From positions 1 through 41,699 of IMG/VR virus record IMGVR_UViG_3300035388_000034: a stretch of 41,699 nt of DNA; one strand, written 5' to 3'. Source of the DNA: a virus. The translations under genes were made by a program, and so were the position numbers. Under the pieces are notes generated by a model, which saw nothing but the letters and a program-made list of their open reading frames with translations, was not told the origin of the DNA and made no database searches. Positions 1 to 21,265 of the stretch are shown here, piece by piece. Every line of letters starts with the position of its first letter. The first letter of the stretch is position 1.

Positions 1-523
1 TTGCTAATTCTACCAAAATACTATAACATAATTCTTCATCTACGATTCAAATTAATTTATTTATCGGTTGAATACATTTCCTTTCGATTTCCTTTACCCA
101 TATTCTGGAACCCTGAGCATTTTGTCATGGGAATGATAATCTCAAAGCTATATTTCCTACCTTTTATAATATTAATCTCAATTGCCGATACTTTCTTTGC
201 TAATTCTACCAAAATACTATAACATAATTCTTCATCTACGATTCAAATTAATTTATTTATCGGTTGAATACATTTCCTTTTGATTTCCTTTACCCACATT
301 CTGGAACCCTGAGCATTTTTCAGGGGAATGATTCTCTCAAGGCTATATTTCCTACCTTTTATAATATTAATCCCAATTGCCGATACTTTCTTTGCTAATT
401 CTACCAAAATACTATAACATAATTCTTCATCTACGATTCAAATTAATTTATTTATCGGTTGAATACATTTCCTTTACCCATATTCTGGAACCCTGAGCAT
501 TTTGTCAGGGGAATGATAATCTC
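1..523. repeat. Tandem 195-196 bp direct repeat, about 2.7 copies
   Basis: Three head-to-tail copies begin at about 1, 197 and 392, each opening with TTGCTAATTCTACC. The third is cut short near 523 and lacks about 11 bp inside. Copies differ by point changes and small indels. Each contains a dyad of the form CCCTGA-loop-TCAGGG, intact in copies 2 and 3 and broken in copy 1. On the minus strand, copy 1 can be read as about 60 codons ending in STDK-stop, so the unit may be the duplicated 3' end of a gene. Copy 2 is frameshifted in that reading. The left boundary is unknown because the window starts inside the array. Confidence 0.8.
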
Positions 524-627
524 CAAAAAAATTATTATTATGACTACATATTCAGGTTATGTTTTATGAACAGTATATTTTCCTGAAAATTCAGTAATTA
601 TAAATAACGATATTCTTAGCTTGATAA

Positions 628-726
628 AAAAACTCTCTCTTAAAAGAATTAGACTTTGCAATTACCCATGCTTCTACACACTACAATCGTGTACTTGATG
701 AATTATCTAAAACAGATGAATGTTAA
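628..726 (+). pseudogene. 3' end fragment of an unidentified gene, possibly a transposase
   Basis: A 32-codon open stretch with no start codon ends in the residues THYNRVLDELSKTDEC and a TAA stop at 724-726. A compact C-terminal run of the THYNRVLDEL kind resembles the tail of some transposases, but the fragment is too short to assign. It sits between tandem repeats and an inverted-repeat element, in keeping with a region of mobile-DNA debris. Confidence 0.25.
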
Positions 727-748
727 TGGCAAAACATATTTGCAACTT

Positions 749-887
749 ATGGCAACATAAAATTGCTTTATATGGAGAAGTGAGTATGGTAGCCTGCCTC
801 GGGTGTCAAGCCTTAGTATACTAGGCTTTTTTGCTTGTCAGCCATACTCACAGAGGTTCCATGTCAAGCAATTTTATGTATTGCCAT
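749..887. repeat. Nested inverted-repeat element with internal hairpin
   Basis: Three concentric inverted repeats are visible. The outer pair (749-768 and 866-887) matches over about 20 bp apart from a 2-nt insertion. The middle pair is a perfect 10 bp (GTGAGTATGG at 780-789, CCATACTCAC at 842-851). The core is a terminator-like hairpin at 808-827 followed by TTTTTT. There is no open reading frame. It could be a miniature transposable element or a structured RNA/terminator; I do not recognise the family. Confidence 0.55.
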
Positions 888-1316
888 TTTAATCAAAAAT
901 CTATTGCCAAATACACAGATGAATTAAAAAAACGAAAAAAAGGTATAGTTCAAAATAAAATATCCTCTACAATATGATTTAACCTTCCTAAACTAACGAA
1001 TAGTGTTGTCGGCACTGTCGATACTTTCGTAACTTTCCCCGGAAATTTTCTCAACTCCAAAGAAAAACATCCTTAAATTAATAACGGGTTCCGTTCTAAG
1101 GTGCAAAGTCAAAAAAACGCAGGTAAAAAAACAGTATAAATTCAAATTATAATATAATAATTTCGAAATTTGCTGTTTTTTTCTATGTGGAAATGCTTGC
1201 AATATTTTGTTTTTTTGCTGAAATCGTCTATTTTAAATAATGGCTATGTTAGACAATAGTGTTTTTATATGCTATAAGTTAATATTATTATATTCGTAGG
1301 GCTAAAACAAGTTCTT

Positions 1317-1537
1317 CTAAAATAAAAAATCACACCTTTTTTTAATCAGAAAAGGTGCAACTCTACTTGATGCCAAATTTCGATTTGTGATTGCTCTCTT
1401 ATTGTTCTTCATCTCACTGTGAAATGAATAAAACAATCTTTTGCCATCTATACCTTTAAGAGATTCTTCAAGAAATTTGTAATTATTTTAATCTCATAAA
1501 TATTCTGAATAGTATCATGTATGTACATTATTAACAT
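1317..1537 (-). pseudogene. Frameshifted C-terminal transposase-like remnant inside the insertion element
   Basis: On the minus strand a short open frame beginning at 1537 reads into HDTIQNIYEIKII. The coding sense then continues in another frame as YKFLEESLKGIDGKRLFYSF and on to a stop at 1317-1319 after RCDFLF. The basic C-terminal half is consistent with the tail of a DNA-binding enzyme such as a transposase. Its position within terminal inverted repeats supports that reading, but no catalytic residues are left to confirm it. Confidence 0.35.
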
Positions 1538-1553
1538 AATAAAAATAAATACA

Positions 1554-1587
1554 AAAGAATAGCATGATAATTGCCATGCTATTCTTT
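1554..1587. terminator. Strong bidirectional hairpin inside the insertion element
   Basis: A perfect 13-bp stem (AAAGAATAGCATG at 1554-1566, its complement at 1575-1587) with an 8-nt loop. It is A-rich before and T-rich after, so it could end transcription from either side of the element. Confidence 0.55.
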
Positions 1588-1696
1588 GTGTAATTTATAT
1601 TGTTATTTTAGTTGCAATTTTTTGACTTTGCAACTCAGAACGGAACCCGTTGTTAAATTAATAAGAATGTTTTTTTAAATCTCTATGAGAATACAA

Positions 1697-1730
1697 TGGT
1701 GAAGGCGGAGATCATCGAACCCACGTCACA
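1697..1730 (-). other. Degenerate tmRNA/tRNA-like 3' end (possible old attachment scar)
   Basis: Read on the minus strand, this stretch ends in CTCCGCCTTCACCA after GACGTGGGTTCGA. That closely follows the 3' end of bacterial tmRNA (T-loop GTTCGA, acceptor strand and CCA). The T-stem no longer pairs properly and no upstream tmRNA body is present, so it is a relic and not a working RNA. Because ssrA is a common integration target, it may be a scar left by another element. Confidence 0.35.
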
Positions 1731-1906
1731 CTAAATTATTAACATTTGCTATTTCATTCTGCAATTTTACTGTAAAATAGCAATTGTTTTAAAAAAGTTT
1801 CCTAGTATATATTCTTCTCGGTTTATACATTTGACAAAACATAAGTTTTGTTATATATTTAGGCTATATATGCGCTTGATATTAGTGCTCGTAGATTTCA
1901 ACTCTT

Positions 1907-1943
1907 AAAAAAACAGCCCATAACCAAAATAGTCATGAGCTGT
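1907..1943 (-). terminator. Original host rnpB terminator, displaced by the prophage
   Basis: On the minus strand an 11-bp stem (1932-1942 pairing with 1914-1924, including G-U pairs) is followed by seven U residues (1907-1913). It lies just downstream of the left attachment repeat, where rnpB transcription would have ended before integration. It is now separated from the rnpB body by the whole prophage. Confidence 0.75.
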
Positions 1944-1960
1944 ATCCTTTGATATTACTA

Positions 1961-2001
1961 TCAATTGGCGAGTAAGTCTATAAGCCGAGTTCTGTATTCG
2001 A
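1961..2001. repeat. attL: left attachment site, duplicated 3' end of rnpB
   Basis: This 41-bp sequence matches 41499-41539 except at one base (G at 1976, A at 41514). It includes ATAAGCCGAGTTCTGT, the complement of the conserved 3' end of RNase P RNA. Here the similarity to rnpB stops after the repeat, so this is the orphan copy created by integration. Similarity to the right copy ends sharply at both edges. Confidence 0.9.
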
Positions 2002-2051
2002 AATCGCGCCTGCCTTACTACAATTTTGACTATCTTATTATATCACATTAT

Positions 2052-2156
2052 GTAGACAAACCAACCGCTTCAAGCTAACTTTTTATTAAATCATATTTTA
2101 TTATATCTTAAAATGAATTATAAAAGTTTTTTCACCGTAGGCAAAATGTAGGCAAA
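2052..2156. promoter_or_regulatory. Candidate integrase arm-type sites, left arm
   Basis: Two direct copies of GTAGGCAAA at 2137-2145 and 2148-2156 have an 11-bp period, with a one-mismatch relative (GTAGACAAA) at 2052-2060. The right end carries GTTGGCAAA twice with the same 11-bp period and orientation. Paired short repeats flanking an att core are typical of the arm sites bound by the N-terminal domain of tyrosine integrases. Confidence 0.55.
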
Positions 2157-2183
2157 GTGGAAATTTATATTTTTTGTATATAT

Positions 2184-3854
2184 TCACTTGCTACTATAAT
2201 TTATAACTATCTTATTAATCTCATCTAATATTGGCTTAAAGTTAGAAAAATCAATTTCCATATAATTTTCTAAAACATATCCAGCAAAAACGCTCTTTCC
2301 ATAATGTTTATCTTTATCTATTTTATTTTCCCTAGAAAAACTCTTCCCCTCAATTTTCTGTAAAAGAACCCCTTCCTCAAATAAATCTTCAATCTCACAT
2401 TCTTTTTTCTGCTTAACCAAAGGATTTGTTAAGAGATATAAATTGCTGCTAATGTTAGTGCATATTTCACCTTCCGCTAAACTTACGTTTTTTGATTTGA
2501 CAAGATTTAGAAACTTTCTCAAAGGCTTAAGTTTCACCTGTTCATTATCAAAAACTAAAAATACTGGATTCAAGGGTTTTGTTTGGCTCTTATTTTTAAA
2601 AAAATCTAATAGGTTTGAGCAATTGCTTTTACCAGCATAGAAATTATATATATTTTGCATAGTATCTGCACCATCTTGATGAATACCCAAAAAATAAGTA
2701 AGTCTAGGTGTCTTGTTCAAAAATGAGATTTTATATTCATACTCATTCCTATTTTTTTTAATAAGCTTAGGATAATCCGCATGATACTTTTTTAATGCTG
2801 ATCTCAAAAAAATAATATCTGTTTTCCCTTCAGTTACTACAAGGGTTTTTTGATTTGAGTAAAAGTAGTTGTAAAATAAAAACTTCTGGTATTGTTCTTC
2901 CCGTGATTTCAAATTACTAAAGTGGTTTCCTTTACCAGCCATTTTATTATTATAACGAACAAGTTGATTAATGTATGCAAATCTTCCTTCTAGCTGTTTA
3001 ATACTTCCTTCAACACCATTAATTTCAAACTGTCCATGTTCATATAAATTATTAGCCATTGCTCTTGTTGACTTGTAATATTCTCTTTTTACATTAATCT
3101 TTTTATTAACTACTAGCCCTGTAACTTCTTGTCTAGAATCTTTATATAACAATCTAGTTTTATTATCATTTATAGATAATCCAAACAGTTCTGACTCCCT
3201 CTTAATCGCCTCACAAAATTCTACTTGCTTATGTAAAAAATCCTTATCATTAGTTGAAAACGTTAAATCATCTGCATATCTAGTATAATCCACTTTATAT
3301 TTACGAGCAATTTTAACTATACGCATATCAAGAATATTACAAATTAAATTTGTAATAATTGGTGAACTCGGTGCTCCTTGAGGTAGCTTTCCTTCAAAAC
3401 AAGTTAATTGAGCTAAAATTGTTGCTACTTCTATAGGAAGTTGAAAATTTCGATTTTTATTGAAATACCCTCTTACTCTACCAAAATGAAAACTATCAAA
3501 AAAATTTTTAAAATCCATATTCAATACATACCGTTTATTTCTATGAACTTCTGCATTAGTTATAATTCCTTTTTTCTTTTCAAATCCATGTGATACATTT
3601 GTATTAATTTTCTCATTTTCATTAATTTTTTTTTGAAAGATCCATAAAGAATCTGATAATTTTCTTTGTAGATTTTTTAAATCTCCGCCCGGTGCATTTA
3701 TATGTCTAGTTCCACCATTCTTTTTGGGGATATCAAATGACTTATAATAGCTTTCTGTTTTATTTATATATAGAATATGTGTGAATTTTTTAAGCGGTAT
3801 TTTTAAAAATCGAGCTAATTCTGCTCTTGATTTTATTTCATTGAATTTTTTCAT
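2184..3854 (-). CDS. Retron reverse transcriptase with C-terminal TOPRIM domain (Ec67-like)
   Basis: A 556-residue protein that should reverse-transcribe the adjacent msr-msd RNA into msDNA. Retron hallmarks are visible in order: region X with NAEVH at 100-104, catalytic Asp in NMDFKNFFDS (D114), LPQGAPSSP at 157-165, YADD at 193-196, and the VTG motif of region Y at 244-246. From about 335 a TOPRIM-like domain follows, with VVTEGKTD at 339-346 (E342) and LVFDNE at 433-438 (D436). Length and fusion match the Ec67 enzyme, whose RT also carries TOPRIM (type I-C, from memory). The ATG at 3854 is chosen because AAGGTG lies 6 bp upstream. A longer frame to 3920 would run into the retron RNA. Inferred role: msDNA synthesis coupled to a nuclease-type effector in phage defence. 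It is the last prophage gene before attL. Confidence 0.93.
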   Translation of the reverse strand: MKKFNEIKSRAELARFLKIPLKKFTHILYINKTESYYKSFDIPKKNGGTRHINAPGGDLKNLQRKLSDSLWIFQKKINENEKINTNVSHGFEKKKGIITNAEVHRNKRYVLNMDFKNFFDSFHFGRVRGYFNKNRNFQLPIEVATILAQLTCFEGKLPQGAPSSPIITNLICNILDMRIVKIARKYKVDYTRYADDLTFSTNDKDFLHKQVEFCEAIKRESELFGLSINDNKTRLLYKDSRQEVTGLVVNKKINVKREYYKSTRAMANNLYEHGQFEINGVEGSIKQLEGRFAYINQLVRYNNKMAGKGNHFSNLKSREEQYQKFLFYNYFYSNQKTLVVTEGKTDIIFLRSALKKYHADYPKLIKKNRNEYEYKISFLNKTPRLTYFLGIHQDGADTMQNIYNFYAGKSNCSNLLDFFKNKSQTKPLNPVFLVFDNEQVKLKPLRKFLNLVKSKNVSLAEGEICTNISSNLYLLTNPLVKQKKECEIEDLFEEGVLLQKIEGKSFSRENKIDKDKHYGKSVFAGYVLENYMEIDFSNFKPILDEINKIVINYSSK

Positions 3855-3868
3855 TAATATCACCTTAA

Positions 3869-3994
3869 GCGTGTGGCCACTCAATATGCAATAAGCGTGC
3901 ATGACATTAGGACAAGACATCTAAGAGTAGAGCAAGTCTCCCCAACATTTTTCTCAAAACCTGCGAAACACAAGTCAAAAATCTAGCCACACGC
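3869..3994 (-). ncRNA. Retron msr-msd RNA
   Basis: The RNA lies directly upstream of the RT gene on the same strand, where retrons carry it. Perfect 9-nt a1/a2 inverted repeats (GCGTGTGGC at 3994-3986 and its complement at 3877-3869) bound it. After a1 comes TAG, whose G at 3983 is a candidate branch guanosine. Three hairpins follow: 3982-3947 (ATTTTT outer stem, inner ACTTG/CAGGT with loop TGTTTCG), 3945-3907 (long stem with internal loops), and 3902-3886 (ATGCA/TGCAT). The msr/msd boundary cannot be set by eye. a2 ends 15 bp before the RT start codon. Confidence 0.85.
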
Positions 3995-4000
3995 AATTCT

Positions 4001-4029
4001 ATTTTATCTCTTTTTTTAGTATATTACAA
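4001..4029 (-). promoter_or_regulatory. Sigma-A-type promoter of the retron
   Basis: On the minus strand TTGTAA (4029-4024) and TAAAAT (4006-4001) are separated by exactly 17 bp. The predicted start falls at about 3994-3997, so the transcript would begin at the a1 repeat, as in known retron RNAs. Confidence 0.6.
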
Positions 4030-4185
4030 TAACATTTATCAAAAGATGCTATTCCCACTCTGTAACTACACTTTTACTGCTATTGCAATACGTTGATTTC
4101 ACTGCATCTCATTTTAAATATTTCATCAAAATCAATCATTTTTTACAACTTCAAAAATTATGCGTATCATATGAGTATCACAATG

Positions 4186-4510
4186 CTAATAATTTCTTAT
4201 GATAAGTTCGCAGTATTTATTATTTATATCCTCATAACGGTGCTGCAAATTATTGCTCCTAACAATCTCCTCTATAGAATGATCTTTGTACATGTCCCTA
4301 TTTTCTTTACAATTATTGTAGACAATATGAATTTGCCTTCCAACTTGTCTGCAACAGCTTTCAATCTCAAGTGGTTATCTTTTTGAGAATGATACTTCCT
4401 TATAATAATGCTCAGTGCCATAATAAGGTGGATCTAAATAAAATAACGCTCCTGGTTTATCGTATATCTTCATTATAAACCCTTTGTTTTTGCATGAACT
4501 ATCAAAATAC
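4186..4510 (-). pseudogene. Relic of a D12-class (Dam-family) adenine DNA methyltransferase
   Basis: Only the C-terminal part survives, split over two frames. The first segment contains the catalytic motif region YDKPGALFYLDPPYYGTEHY (DPPY is motif IV of N6-adenine methylases) and stops after VSFSKR. A shift resumes as DNHLRLKAVADKLEGKFILS. A second shift returns to the first frame, reading YNNCKENRDMYKDHSIEEIV to the stop at 4186-4188 after IIRNY. With no N-terminal SAM-binding half and two frameshifts it cannot be active. It sits between glnA and the retron, on the same strand. Confidence 0.8.
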
Positions 4511-4602
4511 ATTAGCACTAATTTTCAACATTTCTTGAATTAAAACATATTTCTATTCACTCAAAAAATCAATATTTCGTTATCAAAATGTTAGCAAGTT
4601 AA

Positions 4603-4625
4603 AAGCCAGGAGTTATTCCTGGCTT
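4603..4625 (-). terminator. Terminator downstream of glnA
   Basis: A perfect 9-bp stem (AAGCCAGGA / TCCTGGCTT) with a 5-nt loop begins 5 bp after the glnA stop codon. It ends in a short U-rich tail on the minus strand. It would separate glnA transcription from the methylase relic and retron. Confidence 0.7.
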
Positions 4626-4629
4626 CATA

Positions 4630-6000
4630 TTAATATTTTTTTAAATAGTTACTTACTTCCCAGGAATGAACAGTCTGATCATATTCCCTCCATTCCTTCA
4701 TTTTAGTTTTGTAAAATATATCGAATGCATGCTCTCCTAAGGTTTCTTTTAATAAACTGCTTTTTTTCATATACTTCAGTGCTTCATAAAGATTGCTTGG
4801 ATATTGCTCGATTTCATATGTTTTTTGTTCTTTCCTTGTCAGATTATAAATATTCCTATTTACAATTTCCGGTGGCTCAATCTTGTTTTTTATTCCTTCA
4901 AGACCAGCCTTCAGCATTACAGCAAAAACAAGATATGGATTAGCAGTTGGGTCAGGTGTTCTTAGTTCAATTCTTGTACCTTTTCCTCTTGAATTGGGTA
5001 TTCTGATGAATGACGATCTGTTTGAGAATGACCATGTTATATTTGTAGGCGCTTCATAATTAGGCACTAGTCTTTTGTACGAATTTATTGTAGGATTGCA
5101 TACAGCCGCAATATCCTTTGCATATTCGATAAGACCACCTACATAATATTCGGCAATCTTGCTTAATCCAGATTTCCTTCCGCTGTCATAAAATTTATTA
5201 TCACCTTTTATATTGAGCGACTGATTACAGTGCATAGCATTTCCACTCTCTCCTGTAAATGGCTTAGGTAAAAAAGATGCATAAAGACTATGTTTGTGCG
5301 CAATATTCTTGACAACCTGCTTGAAGGTCATCCATTTATCAGCTGTCAACAGTGCTTCATCATATTTAAAGTCAATTTCATGCTGTCCAGGTGCAACTTC
5401 ATGATGAGAAGCTTCAATTTTAAATCCAAGTTCCTGCATCTTTAAAATCATCTCTCTTTTTGCATCTACTCCTTTGTCAAAAGGAGAATTGTCAAAATAG
5501 CCAGCATTGTCATGTATATCAAAAACAGGATTCCCTTTTTCATCAACATTAAAAAGAAAAAACTCTCCTTCTGGTCCCACATCAAGACCATATCCCATTT
5601 CTTCCGCTTCCTTCAGCACTCTCTTTAAGATATTTCTGGGACATCCTTCAAAAGGCTTCTTGTCCTTGTCATAAACATCACAGAATATCTGCGAAACACC
5701 ATATTCATTTGGTCTTAACGGGATAGGTTCGAATGTATCCAAATCCGGAATCAAATACATGTCAGATTCTTCAATTCTACCAAATCCATCTACTGATGAT
5801 CCATCAAACATCAACTCTCCATCCAACGCCTTATCAATCTCATCTGGAGTTATCTCAACATTTTTCCCAAAACCAAATATGTCAGTAAAATTCAATCTGA
5901 TAAATTTGATATCATTTTTTTCTACTAATTCCTTAATCCTCTTTTTCTTCTTCTCCAATCCAATGCTGTAAATACTCGCCTCTTCGTCACTATTGCTCAT
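4630..6000 (-). CDS. glnA: Glutamine synthetase, type I
   Basis: A 456-residue GS-I subunit, full length, that would make glutamine from glutamate, ammonia and ATP in the cytoplasm. Family signatures are intact: FDGSS at 65-69, metal ligands in GPEGEF (E144, E146), ASHHEVAPGQHE ending at 208, MHCNQSL from 256, NPTINSYKRLVP at 312-323, and RIELRTPDPTANPYL from 353. The shorter Gram-positive (alpha) form is suggested by resemblance to Bacillus GlnA and by NIYNLT in place of the adenylylated Tyr loop of beta enzymes. About 12 extra residues lie at the N-terminus. The gene has its own promoter and terminator, AAAGGAAGG is its ribosome site, and it lies inside the att-bounded prophage between the lysis genes and the retron. 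It may be cargo or an acquired host gene. Confidence 0.95.
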   Translation of the reverse strand: MSNSDEEASIYSIGLEKKKKRIKELVEKNDIKFIRLNFTDIFGFGKNVEITPDEIDKALDGELMFDGSSVDGFGRIEESDMYLIPDLDTFEPIPLRPNEYGVSQIFCDVYDKDKKPFEGCPRNILKRVLKEAEEMGYGLDVGPEGEFFLFNVDEKGNPVFDIHDNAGYFDNSPFDKGVDAKREMILKMQELGFKIEASHHEVAPGQHEIDFKYDEALLTADKWMTFKQVVKNIAHKHSLYASFLPKPFTGESGNAMHCNQSLNIKGDNKFYDSGRKSGLSKIAEYYVGGLIEYAKDIAAVCNPTINSYKRLVPNYEAPTNITWSFSNRSSFIRIPNSRGKGTRIELRTPDPTANPYLVFAVMLKAGLEGIKNKIEPPEIVNRNIYNLTRKEQKTYEIEQYPSNLYEALKYMKKSSLLKETLGEHAFDIFYKTKMKEWREYDQTVHSWEVSNYLKKY

Positions 6001-6022
6001 AATACCTTCCTTTCATTACTTA

Positions 6023-6054
6023 AAAAGAGTTCAATTTATATTTTGAACCCTTTT
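6023..6054 (-). promoter_or_regulatory. Hairpin in the glnA leader
   Basis: A 12-bp stem with one G-U pair (6054-6043 with 6034-6023) and an 8-nt loop, followed by TTTTTAAG on the minus strand, lies between the glnA promoter and start codon. It is attenuator-like, or it could stop readthrough from the late operon. I do not see a clear GlnR operator of the TGTNA-N7-TNACA form. Confidence 0.45.
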
Positions 6055-6057
6055 TAA

Positions 6058-6086
6058 ATAATATCATTATGTATTATTTTTTTCAA
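6058..6086 (-). promoter_or_regulatory. Sigma-A-type promoter of glnA
   Basis: TTGAAA (6086-6081) and TATTAT (6063-6058) on the minus strand with a 17-bp spacer. It gives glnA transcription independent of the phage late operon. Upstream, 6087-6260 holds no convincing gene. It contains a 23-codon open frame (about 6191-6120) and a near-palindrome GATATTTTTAAATATC at 6217-6232. Confidence 0.6.
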
Positions 6087-6260
6087 ACAAGCTGACTATC
6101 CCTATATCTTTCCGCCCTGTTCATATTTCATTTAACGTCACCTTAGAGACCTCAAACTTAAACATGCTGAAATATTCTCTTGTTTCCTCCATCATTCTAC
6201 CATATATGATGATATTGATATTTTTAAATATCACAATGACCAGTAGAAGTCTGATCTTTC

Positions 6261-6854
6261 TTATTTATACCTCTTCCTATATTCCGCTAAGGCATAATCT
6301 CCTCTGGTCAAATGTGCATCCGGTCTAAATAATCCATCCGGAAAACCTTCCATCCTTCCAGATTCTATCAATGCTTTTACTCCCAGCTCAGCATGATGAC
6401 CTGTTATATCATCGGTGAATTGTATCATCAGATAAAGACCAGCAGACTTGGAGTTACCCTTATAGACAACTTTACCTGGACAGTGCATTGGCCAATAAAT
6501 CCTGTTATCATTCCCCTCCAGCTTCACTGCATCAAGTGCCCAGTGCTCATAAAGATTATGTCCATACATTGCCTTATATCCTACTTCCAGATACCTAGTC
6601 GTTATCCTATAAGGACCATTGAACAAGGTATTATTCATCATCCTGTAAAGAGCTTCCTTGTCCGGCTCAATCTTCCCGTTCTCAATGTCTCCCATGCTGT
6701 AATTGTCATAACTTCCCTTCACACAATCAGCATGGAGATGCTCACCATCTGCTGCTCCACTGGATCCATACTCACCTATCTGCTGGCCATACCTTAAGAT
6801 GTCTCCAACTTCCCAGGCTGTGCTCTTCAGGTGCAACATTCTGCAGGTATTCAT
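6261..6854 (-). CDS. M23 peptidase-like C-terminal half with S-layer homology domain
   Basis: 197 residues. The N-terminal part (HLKSTAWEVGDILRYGQQIG ... SSGAADGEHLHADCV) follows the second half of an M23/LytM peptidase, with the HLH zinc-binding motif at about 39-41. The first half, including the HxxxD ligand, is absent. The C-terminal 50 residues form one S-layer homology motif (ALIESGRMEGFPDGLFRPDA...LTRGDYA), which would bind the cell wall. It overlaps the upstream protease gene by an ATGA, so the two are translationally coupled. It is last in the late operon, at the usual endolysin position. The missing ligand makes it doubtful that it is an active peptidase alone; it may be a truncated wall-binding subunit. 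Confidence 0.7.
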   Translation of the reverse strand: MNTCRMLHLKSTAWEVGDILRYGQQIGEYGSSGAADGEHLHADCVKGSYDNYSMGDIENGKIEPDKEALYRMMNNTLFNGPYRITTRYLEVGYKAMYGHNLYEHWALDAVKLEGNDNRIYWPMHCPGKVVYKGNSKSAGLYLMIQFTDDITGHHAELGVKALIESGRMEGFPDGLFRPDAHLTRGDYALAEYRKRYK

Positions 6855-7960
6855 CAGTACACCACCTTTGCAGACCGGTCCTCAGGATTCCAAATGACGT
6901 ATGCTCCAATGTCTGAAGCGTATCGTATTGGAAGAAGGAATCTTCCATTCTCTATCTTTGCCGGAGCTTCCATCTCAATGACTTCTCCGTTAATCACAAT
7001 ATTGTTGTTGTCATGCTGCATCCACATATTAAGCTCCAGAGGCTGCAATGTGAAGAATCCTGCACCGTATATCTTGTCTACTCCTGGTATGCCTAAGTCC
7101 TTTGTATTGAACTTGACCAGGTTCCACAACAGATCTTCAGTTATTGGCTTCTTGAATGTTTCTCTATACTTGTTGGCAATTAGAATCCCTGCTCCACATG
7201 ATATAGGCGTAGACATTGATGTTCCGGACATGTAGACATATCCACCATAATTACATGCTGAAAGCACATGTACTCCTATCTGACAGATATCAACATGGTT
7301 TCCAGTTGTCGTGAAATATGCCTGCTCCTTCTTGATGTCTACAGCGCCTACCGCAATGACCTCATCAAGACACGCTGGATATCTTATGCTTTCATCACTT
7401 GTATTGCCCATAGAGCAGAATACTGCAGTTCCATTCTTAACCAGGTCACTTACTGCTATCTTAAGCTGCAAGAGCTCATGTTCTCTTATTCCCCTGTCGT
7501 CTGCAGAAAGGCTCATTGATACAGCTGTGAGCTTCTGTCCAGTCTTAGGATGCCTCCAGTCATTTGCATACCTAAGGCCTTCAATTATCCAGGCCCACTC
7601 CCCTTCACCATCTCCACCACCTAATACTTTGATTGGTACTATTTCACATTTTGGAGCAACTCCAACATTCTTGCCTGCAATGGATCCAGCACAATGAGTG
7701 CCATGTCCAAAGTGGTCGGTGGTGATGTCGGGATCTCCATTATGGTCCTTAGTGAAGTTCTTGCCTTCCAGGAGTCTGTCCTCAAATTCCGGATGTGGTG
7801 AAACTCCAGAGTCTATAACTGCTACTACTTCTCCCTGGCCATAGAATCCCTGGGAGTAATATGCCCTTCTTCCGGTTAGGTCCAGAAACTCCAGGTCCTC
7901 CGGTTTGATTGAATCTACTATGCTATCTGTTATTGGTTTGTCTTCAACAAATTTTATCAT
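6854..7960 (-). CDS. Subtilisin-like serine protease (S8) with stalk-like C-terminal domain
   Basis: 368 residues. The subtilisin catalytic set is complete: D50 in VVAVIDSG, H86 in HFGHGTHCAG, N166 in SMGNTS and S238 in MSGTSMSTP. No signal peptide is seen, so release would need lysis or the adjacent holin. Residues from about 315 (INGEVIEMEAPAKIENGRFL onward) resemble the copper-amine-oxidase N-terminal-like stalk domain found in Gram-positive wall proteins. It stands where an amidase or glycosidase endolysin is expected, immediately after the holin gene. Possible roles are proteolysis of the S-layer or wall proteins during release, or processing of a phage protein. The first is an inference from the SLH domain in the next gene. 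Confidence 0.88.
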   Translation of the reverse strand: MIKFVEDKPITDSIVDSIKPEDLEFLDLTGRRAYYSQGFYGQGEVVAVIDSGVSPHPEFEDRLLEGKNFTKDHNGDPDITTDHFGHGTHCAGSIAGKNVGVAPKCEIVPIKVLGGGDGEGEWAWIIEGLRYANDWRHPKTGQKLTAVSMSLSADDRGIREHELLQLKIAVSDLVKNGTAVFCSMGNTSDESIRYPACLDEVIAVGAVDIKKEQAYFTTTGNHVDICQIGVHVLSACNYGGYVYMSGTSMSTPISCGAGILIANKYRETFKKPITEDLLWNLVKFNTKDLGIPGVDKIYGAGFFTLQPLELNMWMQHDNNNIVINGEVIEMEAPAKIENGRFLLPIRYASDIGAYVIWNPEDRSAKVVY

Positions 7961-7970
7961 TGAGCTCTCC

Positions 7971-8420
7971 TCACTTCGCTTCTTTATTGTTTATATCTGA
8001 TTTCTTCTGCAGGATCTCAATTCCTCTTTTCAATGGATCTGCAATAGGCACTCCCATCAATGCTGCATTCTCAGTAAGTGATATCAACTCATTGACACAA
8101 TAAGCAATGATAACAGCATTCCTGATAAAATCTGATCCTATTGTCATGTCCAATCTTGTAGCCACAAAAACAATAATGAGTGTCACACCCTTTCTACAAA
8201 GACCTTTCCATCCGGCTTTTGATTCCAAAGCTCCGGTCTCTGACTTGCTGCTTTGCTGGAATATTCCAGCAACTAGAAGACCTGTGATATAATCAGCAGC
8301 CATAAATCCTATCAAAGTAACCAAGGCTGTATCCCACCCCCCTAATGCTGACGCTATCATACTTCCAATTACTCCCAATGTTCCCATTAATCCTAGTTTA
8401 ATACTTGATATCTGTTCCAT
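7971..8420 (-). CDS. Phage holin (TcdE/Cph1 holin family)
   Basis: 149 residues with three or four hydrophobic segments in the first 115 residues (LGVIGSMIASALGG, ALVTLIGFMAADYITGLLVA, GVTLIIVFVATRL, NAVIIAYCVNELISL). A polar, charged tail ends KKSDINNKEAK. The pattern GFMAADYITGL ... SK.GWKGLCRKG matches the toxin-secretion/phage-lysis holin family common in clostridial phages. It would form membrane lesions that time lysis. The start is supported by AAAGGAGG 5 bp upstream. The gene lies between the last tail-fibre gene and the protease. Confidence 0.92.
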   Translation of the reverse strand: MEQISSIKLGLMGTLGVIGSMIASALGGWDTALVTLIGFMAADYITGLLVAGIFQQSSKSETGALESKAGWKGLCRKGVTLIIVFVATRLDMTIGSDFIRNAVIIAYCVNELISLTENAALMGVPIADPLKRGIEILQKKSDINNKEAK

Positions 8421-8432
8421 GTTTTCCTCCTT

Positions 8433-9674
8433 TTATTTCAGTACTACGACTCTCAATTTAGATCCTGCATCTACTATCGTCGCGCTTGATGAACCATAGT
8501 GATAAAGCTGTATATAATCACCTTGTGATACTGGAATTGCCGATATATATATTCCTGCATAATTTTTATCACCTGCAACTGCTATCGTATCTCCATTCAA
8601 CAATATTCTTTCACCACTAGAATCACTATGATCCGAACCAGGAGCCTTACCATAAATACATACCAATGACACTCCAGCTGGGATAATTATTTTCGTAGGA
8701 TCCCCGGAACTCCACATTCCTAAATCGTCATTATCCTCAACATCAAAAGTGACATTGACTCCCTGGTTGCCAGGGCTGTAATCTGCAGATACTGAAACCT
8801 CTGTATACTTCCCTAAATTTTGTGCTGCATATAGCTGCTTTCCCTTAAGTGGTGTCAAATACTTATTGTCTACACTTCCTGCTTCAGCTTCCGCCTGGGT
8901 TGCAATTCCATAGTTTTGTACACTACCTAGCGCCACCTGTGACTTTGTTATACCATGCGGGTTGGACGTGTTTGTCCTATGTGAATCAGAACTTGCAACC
9001 TTTGTCTTCTCTGAATCATTATAGGCATTTGTATTTGCTTGCGCCTCATATAGAGCTTTAATCTCTGATCCTGTCTGGTCTCCTGTAGCTCCTGATTCAA
9101 TACCGTTAAGCTTTGTCTTGTCTTCTGCTGTCATAAGACCGTCAACCGTTGGAGTCGCATTTGAGACTCTGAACCTGCAGAAACCGCAGACAGCTTCGTC
9201 TTCTCTCTCACTGGTAATCTCTCCTGAGGTTATTGTTGAAAAACCATTTGCCAAAGAGATCTTAGCAAGTGATGCCTCATAATATGTTGAGTCATCCTGT
9301 ATCAATGCCGGTGGTATTGGACTTGCTGATGGTGTACCCTGCTTTACTGCCAATTCAATTTTTCTTTCTGTAAAATTGATTCTAGCCACAATTCTATCTA
9401 TCCTGGGATTTCCACTTATATTATCTGCAATACTTAGCGTTTCTGCGCTGGCCTTAACAAGCATGGCTCCAATTATAAAAACCGCCCCTGTATCCACATA
9501 TATCGATTTATTCGGAACAGCCTGAGGCTTAACTTCAAGTTCATTTCCTACATCCGCTACAATGTGTCCAATAAGTAATTTGTCAAAATACTCCCTCCAG
9601 GTACCTGATCCAGTCGCTCTATCCCCACCCACAGATGTAAATGGAAATCCAACTGTATTAATAATTTCTGGCAT
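8433..9674 (-). CDS. Tail fibre / receptor-binding protein
   Basis: 413 residues, probably a trimeric distal tail component. The N-terminal 150 residues resemble a baseplate attachment domain (INTVGFPFTSVGGDRATGSG). The middle holds fibre-repeat signatures: VDGLMTAEDKTKLNGIESGA at about 190 and HGITKSQVALGSVQNYG at about 250. The C-terminal 100 residues are beta-rich (YTEVSVSADYSPGNQGVNV ... AGSKLRVVVLK) and likely form the receptor-binding tip. It is the last structural gene before the holin, as usual for host-recognition proteins. Confidence 0.8.
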   Translation of the reverse strand: MPEIINTVGFPFTSVGGDRATGSGTWREYFDKLLIGHIVADVGNELEVKPQAVPNKSIYVDTGAVFIIGAMLVKASAETLSIADNISGNPRIDRIVARINFTERKIELAVKQGTPSASPIPPALIQDDSTYYEASLAKISLANGFSTITSGEITSEREDEAVCGFCRFRVSNATPTVDGLMTAEDKTKLNGIESGATGDQTGSEIKALYEAQANTNAYNDSEKTKVASSDSHRTNTSNPHGITKSQVALGSVQNYGIATQAEAEAGSVDNKYLTPLKGKQLYAAQNLGKYTEVSVSADYSPGNQGVNVTFDVEDNDDLGMWSSGDPTKIIIPAGVSLVCIYGKAPGSDHSDSSGERILLNGDTIAVAGDKNYAGIYISAIPVSQGDYIQLYHYGSSSATIVDAGSKLRVVVLK

Positions 9675-9689
9675 TTTTTCACACTCCTT

Positions 9690-10127
9690 TTATTTCATTT
9701 CCTTAAATTTCTTGGTTTTGTGTTCGTGTCTTTTGATTCCACTGATCCCCAAGTTGTAAAGGTATTCAAGCTCTTTCTGGTCAGTCCACTCTGGCCTCAT
9801 GGCATCTATGTCTAGTGTACCATCCTGAATCTTCTTTTGGATATTGGCTCCATAAAGTGCATCGTCATATTTCTTGTATGTTACTTTGTCCATTTTCTCA
9901 GTAAGTATTAAGTCTGCATCATCTTCGGTTAAAATTTCAACACTTGGATGATTTAAATATTTCTGGGCTTTTTCTGTATCAACGACTTCCATCAACGTTA
10001 CCGGAACTTCTCCACTCATAGATTGATGTCCTTGAGTATACTTCAACCCAATGGCATCTTCCCAACTTCTTAACCTGGCTTCTTCACCCATAATCTGTGA
10101 TAATTGTCCTGTAAATTTAAGTATCAT
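9690..10127 (-). CDS. Hypothetical tail-region protein
   Basis: 145 residues, charged, with no domain I recognise. The N-terminus MILKFTGQLSQIMG resembles short phage tail-accessory proteins. The C-terminus is basic (KRHEHKTKKFKEMK). It sits between two tail-fibre genes with 11-15 bp gaps, so it is probably a fibre-associated factor such as a chaperone or adaptor. That is inferred from position only. Confidence 0.6.
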   Translation of the reverse strand: MILKFTGQLSQIMGEEARLRSWEDAIGLKYTQGHQSMSGEVPVTLMEVVDTEKAQKYLNHPSVEILTEDDADLILTEKMDKVTYKKYDDALYGANIQKKIQDGTLDIDAMRPEWTDQKELEYLYNLGISGIKRHEHKTKKFKEMK

Positions 10128-10138
10128 GCAGCTTCCTC

Positions 10139-10918
10139 CTAGCTTGTTTTCGTTCCACCCACTCCTGTCGGGTAGTTATATGCTGCATCGAAGTTGTTTA
10201 TCGATGCGAATGTTGCTGGATTTAATTCGTGTATTTTGTCATTGGAAGCATCAACATGGAACAAACGGTTGTCTATACCTCCGATACCTCCTGTTGAACC
10301 TGCCACTGGCGATGCTGACGGTCCTCGCAATACTGCTAGGTTGCTTGGGTTAATCTCTGCAACGTTGCCACCGCCTGAGTAAAACAGCTCATCGTTGGTT
10401 CCACCTACACCATCTGGGCTTGTGTCAGGTGAATTAGCCTTTTGTACATAACCATAAAAGGGTGTTGCATGATCCGGGTTTTCTTCTCTTATATCATTAT
10501 CGTCGTCATCGACAATAAATACCTGAGACCCTAACCCTCCGATATCCTTGACGCTGTAGTCAGGAGAGTGGGTACCTGAATTGGAGATAGTTGCATATGT
10601 CGATGGGTTTAACTCGTACATCCTGTCCTCATCCACATTATATAGCCTACCTCTACCATCTCCACCGCATCCAATACACTGGTACTTGTAGATTTCATCG
10701 ATAACTACTCCGTTATCTGGATTGATTTCGTCCATATTATCGGCAACCCTGTCTGCGGCATAAAGCTTGGATGAGCCATAGGTCATACATTCTTTCCACA
10801 CACCCGACACTTTACGGTACGGCATAACTTCCGGTTTCCAAACACCTCCAACATTTCGCCAAACGTTAACTACCTCTTTCCAAACACTACTAACTTTTAC
10901 ATGCGTTGCTTTTGCCAT
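10139..10918 (-). CDS. Tail protein with VWK repeats and a five-repeat beta-propeller-like region
   Basis: 259 residues. Residues 6-45 contain a short repeat with VWK, VWR, VWK, YRK and VWK spaced 6-11 residues apart. From about 51 there are five imperfect repeats of about 40-45 residues, each with the pattern L-Y/F-x-x-D-...-E-x-NP (for example LYNVDEDRMYELNPSTYA and LFHVDASNDKIHELNPATFA) and Gly-rich turns such as GIGGI. This spacing suits the blades of a beta-propeller, perhaps used for binding surface sugars. It lies among tail-fibre genes, all starting from strong ribosome sites. Function is inferred. Confidence 0.75.
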   Translation of the reverse strand: MAKATHVKVSSVWKEVVNVWRNVGGVWKPEVMPYRKVSGVWKECMTYGSSKLYAADRVADNMDEINPDNGVVIDEIYKYQCIGCGGDGRGRLYNVDEDRMYELNPSTYATISNSGTHSPDYSVKDIGGLGSQVFIVDDDDNDIREENPDHATPFYGYVQKANSPDTSPDGVGGTNDELFYSGGGNVAEINPSNLAVLRGPSASPVAGSTGGIGGIDNRLFHVDASNDKIHELNPATFASINNFDAAYNYPTGVGGTKTS

Positions 10919-10929
10919 GCGTTACCTCC

Positions 10930-11958
10930 TTACTCATATTGGAAATATATATCTCCATCAGAACCCCCTGAGGGATCTGCTGTCCCTGAAGTAATATTAT
11001 AAGAGGTCATGTTGTCATCCACATACTTTTTTGTTGCCGGATGATAGTCTGCTGTTGGAGTAAAAGTGGTTGTATTTGTTTTTGCCAAAACTTGATCTAT
11101 ATTTGCAATGGTTTTCCATGCTGTCCAACCGGCATTATCATACATACCTGTTCTATACTGTAGTGGGTCTCCACCATGAGAAGGTCCATAAGGTGTATAT
11201 AACTGAAGTGTTCCACCATCCTGAGCCGACGTGTGACCCTTTACAGTAAGTACTGTTCCATAGTTAGGCCATCCATCTGCAGGAGTTACAAAGCAAGTCT
11301 CAACTCCATAGTTGTAATCTCTAGGTAGTTTGGTATCGTCATTCCATGTATAATGTGCTAATGCTCTAATTCTAGTGTGATAATGACTTAAGGCTGCATA
11401 TAAAGCACTATGTGTATGATTGCCCTCTGCAACCTGTCCTGCACTTGTTCCTAATGCTTTATTAAAACCTGAATTTTTTGTGAAAACTGGTTCGTAAACC
11501 CCACTGTGGTTATGGTCTGAATATGAAAATTCTTTCCAAGAACCCCAACTACCACTACCGCCTACATCTGTAGGATTACCACTTCTGATAAAAGATTTAC
11601 CACCTGTATAATTACAGTACATTTGCGTGATTGTATCTGATAGACCATACATAACCAATAATTGTCCATAACTAGCTGCTCCAACAGGCATATTAGTATT
11701 ACTGCTACCTAATCTATATATTCCAGATGTAGTGAGTGTATTTAAGTCCGCTCCACTGGCTATATTCTTAACTTGAGCAAATCCAGATGAGCTTATGTTA
11801 TCAAGTTTTTCAGAATCTACTGCTTTGGAAGAAGCACCTAACTTAGTATCTAGTCCATCGTCGACATATTTCTTTGTAGTTGCATCATTATCATTAACAG
11901 GTGCACCCACATTAATGATCTTGTTCATAACCATATCAAGAAGTTTCAGAATCTTCAT
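10930..11958 (-). CDS. Tail fibre protein with pyocin-knob-like domain
   Basis: 342 residues. It contains two copies of the fibre motif ATTKKYVDD/PATKKYVDD (near residues 26 and 315). In the middle are pyocin-knob-like segments: GADLNTLTTSGIYRLGSS followed by GSGSWGSWKEFSY, and later a second set around TCFVTPADGWPNYGTVLTV ... AGWTAWKTIA. HNHSGVYE and GNHTHSALY are typical fibre His-rich turns that often bind metal. It is probably a receptor-binding fibre. A ribosome site, GAGGGTGG, precedes the ATG. Confidence 0.82.
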   Translation of the reverse strand: MKILKLLDMVMNKIINVGAPVNDNDATTKKYVDDGLDTKLGASSKAVDSEKLDNISSSGFAQVKNIASGADLNTLTTSGIYRLGSSNTNMPVGAASYGQLLVMYGLSDTITQMYCNYTGGKSFIRSGNPTDVGGSGSWGSWKEFSYSDHNHSGVYEPVFTKNSGFNKALGTSAGQVAEGNHTHSALYAALSHYHTRIRALAHYTWNDDTKLPRDYNYGVETCFVTPADGWPNYGTVLTVKGHTSAQDGGTLQLYTPYGPSHGGDPLQYRTGMYDNAGWTAWKTIANIDQVLAKTNTTTFTPTADYHPATKKYVDDNMTSYNITSGTADPSGGSDGDIYFQYE

Positions 11959-11968
11959 GTTACCACCC

Positions 11969-12889
11969 TCATCCTATGCATATCACTTTATATTGATTTG
12001 TCGTTGGAGCAGTTGAAAAGCTTACTGTTGCATTGTTTGCATCTGTACATACAATGTCTGTGTAGACTTTGCTGTTTGATGCTATTTCAATAACAGATAC
12101 ATCAACATACTGATTCCCCAAGTTGTGGTTTATAGTGAAAGATGTTAGGCTTCCATTGCCAATTGTTGTTTCATATCTGTCAACCGTGTTAACCTCTGCG
12201 CCTGAAGCTATTACATTTAGTTTATTAAGAAGTGTATCTGTAAAGTCATTTGCAGAAAGCCCCTTACCTGCAACCTTATCTACTTTATTTGCAAGAGCAT
12301 TTGTAATTGTTGTTGCAAAATTCGGATCATCTCCAAGAGCAGCAGCCAATTCATTAAGGGTATCAAGCGTAGCAGGTGAACTTGCTATAAGGTTTGCAAT
12401 GGCTGTATCTGTGTGGGAATTTGCTGATGATTCCGCAGAATCTGCTTTTGTCTGTGCCCCTGATATTGTTTCCTTTGCATTCCAGTCGGATTTTTCTGAA
12501 TCAGTTACAAACCTGTGTGTAGCATCCTGCGAAACTATAGTGTTTGGAATTGCTGAAATAATAAAATTAAGCTTCCCTGTAGCATCATCATAAGTTACAC
12601 TTATATTTGTCTCAGTATTACCAGCCACCATTGCTCCGATAATATCCTGTACCGATTCTTCAGTTGGCTCAAAAGTTGATGGTTTCCCAGTGATATCTCC
12701 CCATGCAACAGCATCTACGCTACCAAGAGAAGTCCAACTTGATCCATTGTAGTAATAGATTTTCTTGTCAGTTGAATTATAGTATATCTTTCCCTCTATC
12801 CCCGACGGAGATGAAGCCAGAAGGTGCAGCTTTACATTTTGCATCTCATTATTATTAAGATCCACATTGCTTACATATTTTATAGACAA
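11969..12889 (-). CDS. Tail fibre / baseplate structural protein
   Basis: 306 residues. The N-terminus MSIKYVSNVDLNNNEMQNVK is the common phage-fibre N-terminal motif. It is followed by a GKIYYNSTDKKIYYYNGSSW strand repeat, then WGDITGKPSTF, a collar motif seen in many siphophage fibres. A helical segment (AQTKADSAESSANSHTDTAI) and a C-terminal beta domain (TSFTINHNLGNQYVDVSVIE) close the protein. The same NHNLG...V.V C-terminal module also ends the upstream Gp37-like protein, suggesting modular exchange. Confidence 0.8.
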   Translation of the reverse strand: MSIKYVSNVDLNNNEMQNVKLHLLASSPSGIEGKIYYNSTDKKIYYYNGSSWTSLGSVDAVAWGDITGKPSTFEPTEESVQDIIGAMVAGNTETNISVTYDDATGKLNFIISAIPNTIVSQDATHRFVTDSEKSDWNAKETISGAQTKADSAESSANSHTDTAIANLIASSPATLDTLNELAAALGDDPNFATTITNALANKVDKVAGKGLSANDFTDTLLNKLNVIASGAEVNTVDRYETTIGNGSLTSFTINHNLGNQYVDVSVIEIASNSKVYTDIVCTDANNATVSFSTAPTTNQYKVICIG

Positions 12890-12904
12890 ATTACCATCTC
12901 CTTT

Positions 12905-14221
12905 CTAGTTTAAGTATGCTTTCCCGCTGAAAGCACCTGAAAATAAAACTGTCAGCGAGTTGATATCAGTGTAGTCAACTTCACCAACAACTACTGAGTT
13001 TGCACTGTCAACAATAGATACTGAAGGATATTTACCAAGATTGTGATTTACAGTCCATATTGAAGCAGCAACAGTCTGGTTGTGTATATAGTTGGCATCT
13101 GAAGTTGATCCACTACTCGAACCTGCTGTTTCAGATGTTTCAATTACTGAGATTCTGTCATTTATTGAATTGAATATTTTTCCTACTGTCCTCTCTGACT
13201 TGCCAAATTCCGGTATAACCTGTATGTTCCCTGCCTCATAAACTTCCTTGACCTTCTGGACCTGAAGGTCCATATAGTTGTCCTTGTCAATAACAACTGT
13301 AACGAAATCGCCGAGGTCCCAGTCTGATTCATATTTATACTGCATTTCCAGCACCTCAAACTCATAGCTATTGATTGCTGCATTTTCCGAAAGTGCCTGC
13401 TGACCTCTTTCCGTCAATTCTGCGTTTTCATTGATGTCCCTGGCATCGACAAACTTTTCCTTCCTCCTGGAAGAACCTGTGCTCTCAACCTCAACAATGT
13501 TCCTTGCAGCTCCCTCACCTTGACCACCTACATAGGCAACAGTCTTCTCGGCAAGTATGTCCTTCACCTTCTTGTAGTTTGCAATATTGCCGTACTTCAG
13601 ACCAAACATCACCCTGTTATTCACACTCTGGCCAGAAGTAAGATTCTTCCCTTCCGATACATTGAAAACAAACTGATGATTGATCAAGTCAATTTCAAGG
13701 CACCATCCCAGATCCTCAATAGACAGTACCCTAATAATCTCATCAGACAAGTTTTTATACCTGGTCTGCTCGGTCAAACTACTTCCAAGTCCCTGTAAAT
13801 TTCCAAGAACAACAGGATATTGCTTTCTGTCAATATCAACAGGATTGATACAGTTCGAATCAACCCAACCTTTGACAATAGCTTCCCTTGTTCCGGTCCT
13901 CCTGTCATAGGCCTGTCCTGCAGGAGGGATTGTGATGTAATCCTTGATTAGAGCATTGATATGAGTTGAAATAATCTCATACTGCTCCACTCCATTTTCA
14001 AAGTTCATAAGGATCCTTTCAACAATAAAGACTTTCTCATATTCCTTGTCAAACCAAATCAGGTCATTCTCTGCAATCTGATCAGCATTGGCAATGTCCG
14101 AACAAATAAAAATATTCATGCTTCCAATACCGTTCCATGTCCTATTCATAACAATAGATTCATAACCTTTAATTGCTGCCTTGTATGTAAAATTCAACTT
14201 CATAATATTTAAAATCTTCAT
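12905..14221 (-). CDS. Siphovirus Gp37-like tail protein (tail-associated, baseplate hub)
   Basis: 438 residues. The N-terminal 350 residues fit the ReqiPepy6 Gp37-like family, with LNFTYKAAIKGYESIVMNR opening and WDLGDFVTVVIDKDNYMDLQ near 305-325. This family folds like baseplate hub proteins and follows Dit in siphophage operons. After a Ser-rich linker (ETAGSSSGSTSDAN) there is a short beta module with WTVNHNLGKYPSVSIVD shared with the next gene. The order tape measure, Dit, this protein, fibres is standard. Confidence 0.82.
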   Translation of the reverse strand: MKILNIMKLNFTYKAAIKGYESIVMNRTWNGIGSMNIFICSDIANADQIAENDLIWFDKEYEKVFIVERILMNFENGVEQYEIISTHINALIKDYITIPPAGQAYDRRTGTREAIVKGWVDSNCINPVDIDRKQYPVVLGNLQGLGSSLTEQTRYKNLSDEIIRVLSIEDLGWCLEIDLINHQFVFNVSEGKNLTSGQSVNNRVMFGLKYGNIANYKKVKDILAEKTVAYVGGQGEGAARNIVEVESTGSSRRKEKFVDARDINENAELTERGQQALSENAAINSYEFEVLEMQYKYESDWDLGDFVTVVIDKDNYMDLQVQKVKEVYEAGNIQVIPEFGKSERTVGKIFNSINDRISVIETSETAGSSSGSTSDANYIHNQTVAASIWTVNHNLGKYPSVSIVDSANSVVVGEVDYTDINSLTVLFSGAFSGKAYLN

Positions 14222-14222
14222 A

Positions 14223-15095
14223 TCACACCCCTACATACCTGTTATTGTATTTAACAACTGCACCCTCAACCTCTGAATCGTCAGCAACAACTTTAATCTT
14301 GTTGGAACCAAGGACTAGATTAAAGAATGTCGTCTCACCTACATCGATATACTGAAAAGCTACAGATGTATCACCTGTAGCCAAATCAGTCTTAATAACA
14401 TTAATATTATCAATCTCTGTAGTAATCGTTAGTCGCTCATCTGCAAACAGGTCCATGTCCAGGACTATCTTTTCTCCGGTAGTTTCATTTTCGATTTCCA
14501 TGGGACTGGACTTTGGCCCATCAAGAATGACGGTGACAGGAGTCTCAACATCCCCATTATTCTGAATCGTAACTCCGTCAACATTCAGATAATCAAATTC
14601 AAAGCTTTCAGTAATGTTCACGGGAAATTCAAACAAATTTCCTCCGGAGACAACCTGCGCTTCAATCTCCGTAACATCCTTATAGTAAGGATCAAAAGCT
14701 TCCAGGATAATGCTTGTGAACTGGAAAGCCTTTCCTTTTGACATACCGCCCAGCATTGAGGGAAGCTTCCTTGCTCTCACCCTGGTAAGCATCCGGCTTA
14801 CTCCGTCTCTTTCGTAGATCAAGGTTCCATCACCATGCTTCGGATTCAGAATGTTGTTCAGTTCTCTCAATGCAGACATTACATCATCAGACATTATTAT
14901 GAAACTAACATTAAGGATCCTTGTCATCATCCTTGGTGTACCCTTCAGGGAAGCTCCATCCTGGTACGGTCCCACTGATGTCTGCATGTTGAAGTTCATA
15001 CCTCCAAGGTCTTCAACATTAATCCACTGATAAGTTCCAGTGTCTTTGAATTCAATCTGCTGTTCTCTTGCGTTTGTAAAAATCAATCTTTCCAT
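14223..15095 (-). CDS. Distal tail protein (Dit-like)
   Basis: 290 residues, siphovirus tail-component family. The N-terminal half (QWINVEDLGGMNFNMQTSVG, then RILNVSFIIMSDDVMSALRE and LIYERDG) is the ring-forming Dit domain at the tail tube tip. The C-terminal half (about 170-290) is a beta-sandwich-like domain (DVETPVTVILDGP ... GETTFFNLVLGSNKIKV). It lies directly after tape measure and before the hub protein, matching canonical order. Confidence 0.87.
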   Translation of the reverse strand: MERLIFTNAREQQIEFKDTGTYQWINVEDLGGMNFNMQTSVGPYQDGASLKGTPRMMTRILNVSFIIMSDDVMSALRELNNILNPKHGDGTLIYERDGVSRMLTRVRARKLPSMLGGMSKGKAFQFTSIILEAFDPYYKDVTEIEAQVVSGGNLFEFPVNITESFEFDYLNVDGVTIQNNGDVETPVTVILDGPKSSPMEIENETTGEKIVLDMDLFADERLTITTEIDNINVIKTDLATGDTSVAFQYIDVGETTFFNLVLGSNKIKVVADDSEVEGAVVKYNNRYVGV

Positions 15096-15099
15096 ATCA

Positions 15100-17430: not shown

Positions 17431-17467
17431 CTATTCACCCCCCTTTGGCAAAATAAAAAGACCCTCA

Positions 17468-18015: not shown

Positions 18016-18034
18016 CTTTCTACCTCTCTATTTT

Positions 18035-18634: not shown

Positions 18635-18646
18635 CTACATCACTCC

Positions 18647-19030
18647 TTAACCGCTAACTACTGATACTGCACCATCAGACTCAAGCTCGTATGATACAGA
18701 AACCTCTCCGGCTACTGCAGCACCCATGTTCATGCTGGAAACCTTGTAATCGAATGTCCAACCGTTTGCACCATCCGGAAGATATGTAACTGATACATTG
18801 GCACCATTTGCCCAGGCACTGTACAATGCAACCTGCCCTGTATCTGCTCCATTATAAAATCCACTTAAAGAAAGCTTTCCGCTCTTCAATCCTTGGATCT
18901 GTTTCTTCCATCCTCCGTCACTGAAGGTTGTTCCATCAATCAAAGCACCATCAAAACTTATACCTGCATCGTTCAATCCATTTATTGCTGTTGCACCTTG
19001 TTTAATAACTGCATTTTTACCTGGTAACAT
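18647..19030 (-). CDS. Phage tail tube protein
   Basis: 127 residues. The sequence GKNAVIKQGATAINGLNDAG at the N-terminus, the central strand pattern SGKLSLSGFYNGADTGQVAL, and a C-terminal VSSMNMGAAVAGEVSVSYEL fit the small TP901-1/lambda gpV-like tube proteins. The subunits should stack as hexamer rings. It is located between the tail completion proteins and the chaperone, as in the standard order. Confidence 0.8.
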   Translation of the reverse strand: MLPGKNAVIKQGATAINGLNDAGISFDGALIDGTTFSDGGWKKQIQGLKSGKLSLSGFYNGADTGQVALYSAWANGANVSVTYLPDGANGWTFDYKVSSMNMGAAVAGEVSVSYELESDGAVSVVSG

Positions 19031-19048
19031 CTTTAATCACCCTTTCTT

Positions 19049-19192: not shown

Positions 19193-19196
19193 TTCA

Positions 19197-19589: not shown

Positions 19590-19598
19590 CTATTCCCC

Positions 19599-20880: not shown

Positions 20881-20888
20881 ATAATCAC

Positions 20889-21227: not shown

Positions 21228-21235
21228 AACATAAA

Positions 21236-21253: not shown

Positions 21254-21265
21254 GATCACCTCCTA

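Follow-up and report, generated by a model that had tools for sequence, protein, structure and literature searches.

A tailed prophage at the 3' end of rnpB, with an exchanged terminator and an integrase of an rnpB-associated clade

Islands and prophages that use tRNA or tmRNA genes as targets normally restore the 3' end of the gene they enter (PMC4383910). The locus described here resembles these elements, which follow the Islander principle, in its tyrosine integrase, in an attP that would contain part of the target RNA gene, in the restoration of the gene on integration and in the displaced fragment found at the other end. It differs from them in its target, the ribozyme gene rnpB, and in the visible exchange of a transcription terminator (PMC4383910). 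The integrase family that targets dusA is similar in that one conserved gene is hit and that its members are found with both prophages and genomic islands; according to the accessible part of that report, its target is protein-coding and is hit at the 5' end (PMC4482086). An element in rnpB has also been described, namely a putative phage-inducible chromosomal island (PICI) said to split this gene in Clostridium novyi sensu lato (PMC8473940). It is likewise an integrative element in the rnpB of a clostridial host, but it is a satellite island, and the accessible part of its description contains no att, terminator or integrase analysis (PMC8473940). This was the one element in rnpB that the literature search found; in the other papers of that search rnpB served merely as a marker gene or was listed among annotations. 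An integrase clade specific to rnpB is described nowhere in the papers within reach of this search, which excluded most subscription papers.

The window, i.e., the whole stretch of 41,699 nucleotides analysed, ends on the right in the 3' part of rnpB (Table 1). This part matches Rfam RF00010 with 147.1 bits (E 1.5e-45), the alignment covering positions 155-367 of the 367 of the model, and the 5' part of the gene is truncated by the window end. The last bases of the gene recur near the left end as a 41-bp repeat in the same orientation, with a single mismatch, G at 1976 versus A at 41514. A 31-mer of the repeat, with up to 3 mismatches allowed, matches only these two sites in the window and has no match in shuffled sequences. 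The genes for TerL, portal, capsid, prohead protease, tail, holin, repressor and integrase lie between the two copies. One end of the locus has the RNA gene, intact as far as the window reaches (its 5' part being beyond it), and the other has a displaced 3' fragment that points the same way; no tRNA or tmRNA gene is present within the window as an alternative target. The copy at attR is probably the functional, restored rnpB.

Table 1. Coordinates of the main features of the window
Feature	Position	Strand	Remarks
Host flank left of attL	1..1960		Non-coding near the junction; 1908-1960 matches the sequence that follows rnpB in D. aminovorans
Original host rnpB terminator (predicted)	1907..1943	-	Hairpin 1943-1913 and T run 1912-1907; directly adjoins rnpB in D. 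aminovorans
attL core, displaced copy of the rnpB 3' end	1961..2001	-	40/41 identical to the attR core
Prophage, attL to attR, tailed phage	1961..41539		Terminase, portal, capsid, tail, lysis, repressor and integrase genes
Left arm-type sites (putative), GTAGGCAAAAT and GTAGGCAAAG	2137..2157	+	Direct pair 11 bp apart
Tyrosine integrase, 386 aa	40311..41471	+	Convergent with rnpB; Pfam Phage_integrase, SAM_3, Arm-DNA-bind_4
Right arm-type sites (putative), GTTGGCAAATC and GTTGGCAAAA	41448..41468	+	Direct pair 11 bp apart, in the last codons of the integrase gene
Phage-supplied rnpB terminator (predicted)	41470..41500	-	12-pair hairpin 41500-41473 and T-rich tail
attR core, rnpB 3' end	41499..41539	-	Conserved stretch ACAGAACUCGGCUUA, P1 3' strand and a few bases further
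rnpB 3' part, class A RNase P RNA	41503..41699	-	RF00010; 97% identity to D. aminovorans rnpB

An rnpB-derived pattern search points to one species with the empty site, Dethiosulfatibacter aminovorans DSM 17477, which is a related species and a different strain from the host of the window. In this genome (L003) the rnpB, 97% identical to 41508-41699, is contiguous with a homologue (92%) of 1908-2005 that includes the same terminator as window 1907-1943; the remainder of the left flank, 1-1906, has no counterpart there. Because of this contiguity, the strong terminator hairpin to the left of attL is considered the ancestral host rnpB terminator, cut off by the prophage and now about 39.6 kb away from its gene. 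At the other end, the phage-supplied hairpin is placed between rnpB and the integrase stop codon, with its T run opposite the stop codon region. Its folding energy of -14.2 kcal/mol stands out by a moderate margin, as 2 of 40 shuffles are equally good. The two terminators (1907-1943 and 41473-41500) are unrelated in sequence and, since the sequences part directly after the repeat, the exchange of the rnpB terminator is certain at the sequence level. Judged from their structure, both hairpins would terminate rnpB transcripts, and RNase P activity is presumably unaffected by the insertion. The first-pass annotation had placed the integration in the rnpB 3' end, which the junction sequences and the empty site support. 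Its identification of the 41-bp att repeat with the RNase P RNA 3' end agrees with the RF00010 match and the 40/41 repeat, and the host terminator is stranded where it had been placed, as a hairpin and T run that D. aminovorans keeps beside rnpB. The empty site to be looked for in related genomes exists, rnpB being joined straight to the 1908-2005 homologue. A phage terminator given as 41478-41495 is also present, with a slightly wider hairpin (41473-41500).

The integrase matches PF00589 (E 3.5e-22) and its gene is located at the restored end, 31 bp from rnpB. Its translation contains the catalytic motifs R (LRRGE), HDLR, LGH and Y (NIYSH), and it is the likely agent of the insertion. The motif T[TA]GGCAAA occurs only six times on the plus strand of the window, and four of the six form the two direct pairs of Table 1, with the consensus (G)TWGGCAAA. 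Equivalent pairs are found at both element ends in the relatives, and these GTWGGCAAA pairs are read as putative integrase arm sites. In the proposed mechanism, Int would bind core sites in the conserved rnpB 3' stretch and, on the phage DNA, the two GTWGGCAAA pairs; strand exchange would occur inside the 41-bp identity. The terminator side of the crossover would thereafter be entirely phage-derived, and the host 3' fragment would be left behind with its terminator at the far end. The phage would keep rnpB intact by bringing the same P1 3' strand and, between the att core and the integrase gene, a new intrinsic terminator. It is very probable that the prophage of the window is tailed and temperate and that a tyrosine integrase inserted it at the rnpB 3' end, with att, arm and terminator elements of this kind.

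The mere existence of a repeat, and nothing more, would also be accounted for by a segmental duplication or recombination that copied the rnpB 3' end, with the phage between the copies by chance. This is extremely unlikely: D. aminovorans has an empty site, the integrase gene nearly adjoins rnpB, arm sites occur at both ends and the same anatomy is seen with related integrases in at least five other genomes. The hairpin at 41473-41500 directly follows the integrase stop codon, and might mainly end the integrase mRNA and serve rnpB only incidentally. However, the plus strand has no T run at the hairpin (ATTTC comes next), the T run being on the rnpB strand, and most relatives have an rnpB-strand terminator at the same place, which makes an integrase terminator improbable.

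The position of the crossover bears on how much of the RNA is supplied by the phage. The sole difference within the repeat (1976/41514) falls in P1, opposite a G of the 5' strand of D. aminovorans, which was used to judge the pairing as the window lacks its own rnpB 5' part. Facing a G, the base forms either G-C or G-U and pairs either way. A crossover before the mismatch, in the RNA sense, would mean that the phage gives the whole P1 3' strand, and one after it, the last bases and the terminator alone. As the crossover could fall on either side of the single mismatch, the change in the mature RNA would here be one base at most. The comparison of allele pairs and P1 strands gave no single position within the repeat. 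A crossover at the extreme 3' end of the repeat, by which the phage swaps the terminator only and 1976/41514 is an attP difference left in attL, is possible, though we do not favor it. The T at the mismatch is common to attR and the D. aminovorans empty site (RNA sense GATTTACTC), and attL has C. On the other hand, the identity block runs through the P1 3' strand in every element, as would follow if the crossover lay near the 5' edge of the block and the phage had to restore all of the gene downstream of it. The G102 mismatch (CA/TT) and G058 put their crossovers 3' of ACAGAAC, and no finer. With the element-supplied strand, P1 has at least 9 pairs in seven of the seven other genomes; the P1 of G053 has an internal mismatch common to both copies. 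For the prophage of the window, the earlier statement that it swaps in its own 3' end and terminator is thus retained for the terminator, and the 3' end of its own amounts to at most one base of the mature RNA.

The use of rnpB is recurrent. In a survey of 199 genomes of the same order, 191 had an rnpB match, and in 7 of the 191 the rnpB 3' end is present once more as a short copy (G014, G025, G032, G044, G053, G058 and G102), a number to be read as a minimum because detection needs copies of about 25 bp or more. The displaced copy is on the same contig, 2.8-50 kb from rnpB, in 6/7, and on a separate contig in G014. The genomes with the best integrase matches (G014, G053 and G032) belong to this set, and a class-wide sample of 391 genomes yields two good integrase matches, G521 and G438. 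The att core spans the conserved ACAGAAC-CGGCUUA stretch of RNase P RNA. This stretch is part of the catalytic core of the ribozyme, and its conservation may account for the preference of the integrases.

Viral contigs were searched likewise. An exact 69-mer of rnpB has no match in IMG/VR. This collection was then scanned with a 16-mer, and the many matches that were apparently host rnpB or chance were excluded. Three contigs (L129, L138 and L141) have an attP-like order of repeats, rnpB 3' end, terminator and repeats, with phage-like DNA on either side as expected of attP. They carry other integrases, and in L138 and L129 an integrase-like gene adjoins the attP-like region. A search of IMG/VR for related loci with the window integrase found none. 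The phage record MT835480.1 contains an rnpB stretch and was not counted, since no such integrase is within reach. Five further viral contigs (L075, L102, L105, L109 and L125) have high-GC, Thermus-like rnpB 3' ends of varied lengths joined to non-rnpB DNA, a terminator and GTGGGA repeats; they are perhaps another, independent user of rnpB.

The rnpB-associated integrases, the window one included, form a single clade (7/7; UFBoot 100, SH-aLRT 100) in a maximum likelihood tree of 15 sequences, in which a grouping is one side of a branch. The five that are 50-59% identical to that of the window (G014, G053, G032, G521 and G438) all stand beside rnpB, at 40-68 bp in four of them and at about 2 kb in G032. 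L069 (37-42% identical) is the most distant member; its arm sites adjoin rnpB, and its integrase gene lies several hundred bases beyond. Weaker matches (at most 41% identity) are never near rnpB, and a search for nearby tRNA targets in G045, G019, G033 and G063 found none. The nearest named phages in the collection have full-length homologues with 34-39% identity (Clostridioides phages phiC2, phiCD418 and phiCDKH02, Paenibacillus phage Tadhana and Latilactobacillus phage TMW 1.1447 P1), which lie outside the rnpB clade. The element of G032 has a Zot-type ATPase next to a replication-like gene and is on this basis considered a filamentous phage; as it carries a clade integrase, the clade serves differing virus types, tailed and filamentous. 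An apparent remnant of another integrase end, with an arm site and a terminator, is found next to rnpB in G032, and a NO VEIN-type protein and a 117-aa MazG-like ORF lie between its integrase and rnpB (L044, L051). Decayed integrases of the window kind persist in G044 and G102. At the same site in G058 there is a different, Xer-like integrase with another N-terminal domain; since it is unrelated to the clade, the rnpB site seems to have been taken up on two or more occasions.

In seven pairs and in the window, rnpB (on the element side) and the displaced copy are each followed by a hairpin with a T run. Within a pair the two terminators have different sequences, and only those of G032 are almost alike; there, the element-side stem ACACTATC...GATAGTGT and its T run were read directly, the scoring script having chosen another hairpin. 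Terminators supplied by the element stand right after rnpB in the window, G014, G053, G032, G521 and G438, and the decayed elements of G102 and G044 likewise have hairpins; L069 has no convincing terminator after rnpB. The element terminators are mostly unrelated to one another in sequence, so the arrangement arose repeatedly or was rebuilt. In G053, G438 and G044 the hairpin includes arm sites or the last part of the integrase gene; that of the window merely abuts its arm sites. Int binding or convergent integrase transcription in these three could conceivably modulate rnpB termination or antisense, and RNase P RNA levels would then be linked to the state of the phage, a conjecture of very low probability.

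As restoration is ordinary in tRNA and tmRNA genes and the C. novyi island already occupies rnpB, the locus is a well-resolved case of a known kind at an under-described target. The view of rnpB as a rarer target than tRNA and tmRNA genes agrees with the literature found, yet the site is recurrent in this bacterial order. The first-pass annotation also saw a neat solution in the new terminator; the replacement is there, but it follows the usual logic of elements at RNA gene 3' ends, and rnpB had been reported before (PMC8473940). New here are the clade of rnpB-adjacent integrases, one of them from a filamentous phage, the second, unrelated integrase at the same site, the element-supplied terminators in nearly all elements examined and the putative paired arm sites at both prophage ends. 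In Clostridia and relatives, temperate phages thus land repeatedly in the most conserved part of rnpB, a universal and essential ribozyme gene, and a dedicated integrase clade common to tailed and filamentous phages serves this site. Prophage finders limited to tRNA and tmRNA genes would overlook such boundaries, and rnpB annotations adjoining these elements may be miscalled as split. The natural swaps of terminators, and sometimes of P1 strands, could reveal the needs of RNase P RNA maturation.

Other features of the window concern its flank and gene content. The left edge of the host flank (1-523) consists of 2.7 tandem copies of a 195-bp unit with 92% matches, and 738-890 contains a long imperfect inverted repeat (ACATAAAATTGCTT ... 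AAGCAATTTTATGT) around a smaller hairpin. Beside attL, 2184-3920 (minus strand) encodes a reverse transcriptase-TOPRIM nuclease fusion of the retron Ec67 family, RT-Toprim type I-C (NCBIfam NF038237, 647 bits; PADLOC E 1.5e-241), which is a probable retron defence gene; a single folding of the upstream region (about 3921-4250) identified no retron ncRNA. Also on the minus strand are a full-length type I glutamine synthetase, GlnA (4630-6000; 524 bits, over the cut-off), with relatives in only 29 phage records (best identity 55%), and a subtilisin-like protease with a copper amine oxidase N-terminal-like domain (6854-7960), adjoining holin and endolysin-like genes. A phosphoadenosine phosphosulfate reductase-like protein whose N-terminus weakly matches HNH endonuclease profiles is encoded at 27841-28767 (minus strand). 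Finally, a second tyrosine recombinase of 181 aa, Xer-like (phrog_216) and comprising the catalytic part alone, is encoded in the middle of the prophage, at 29256-29801 on the minus strand.
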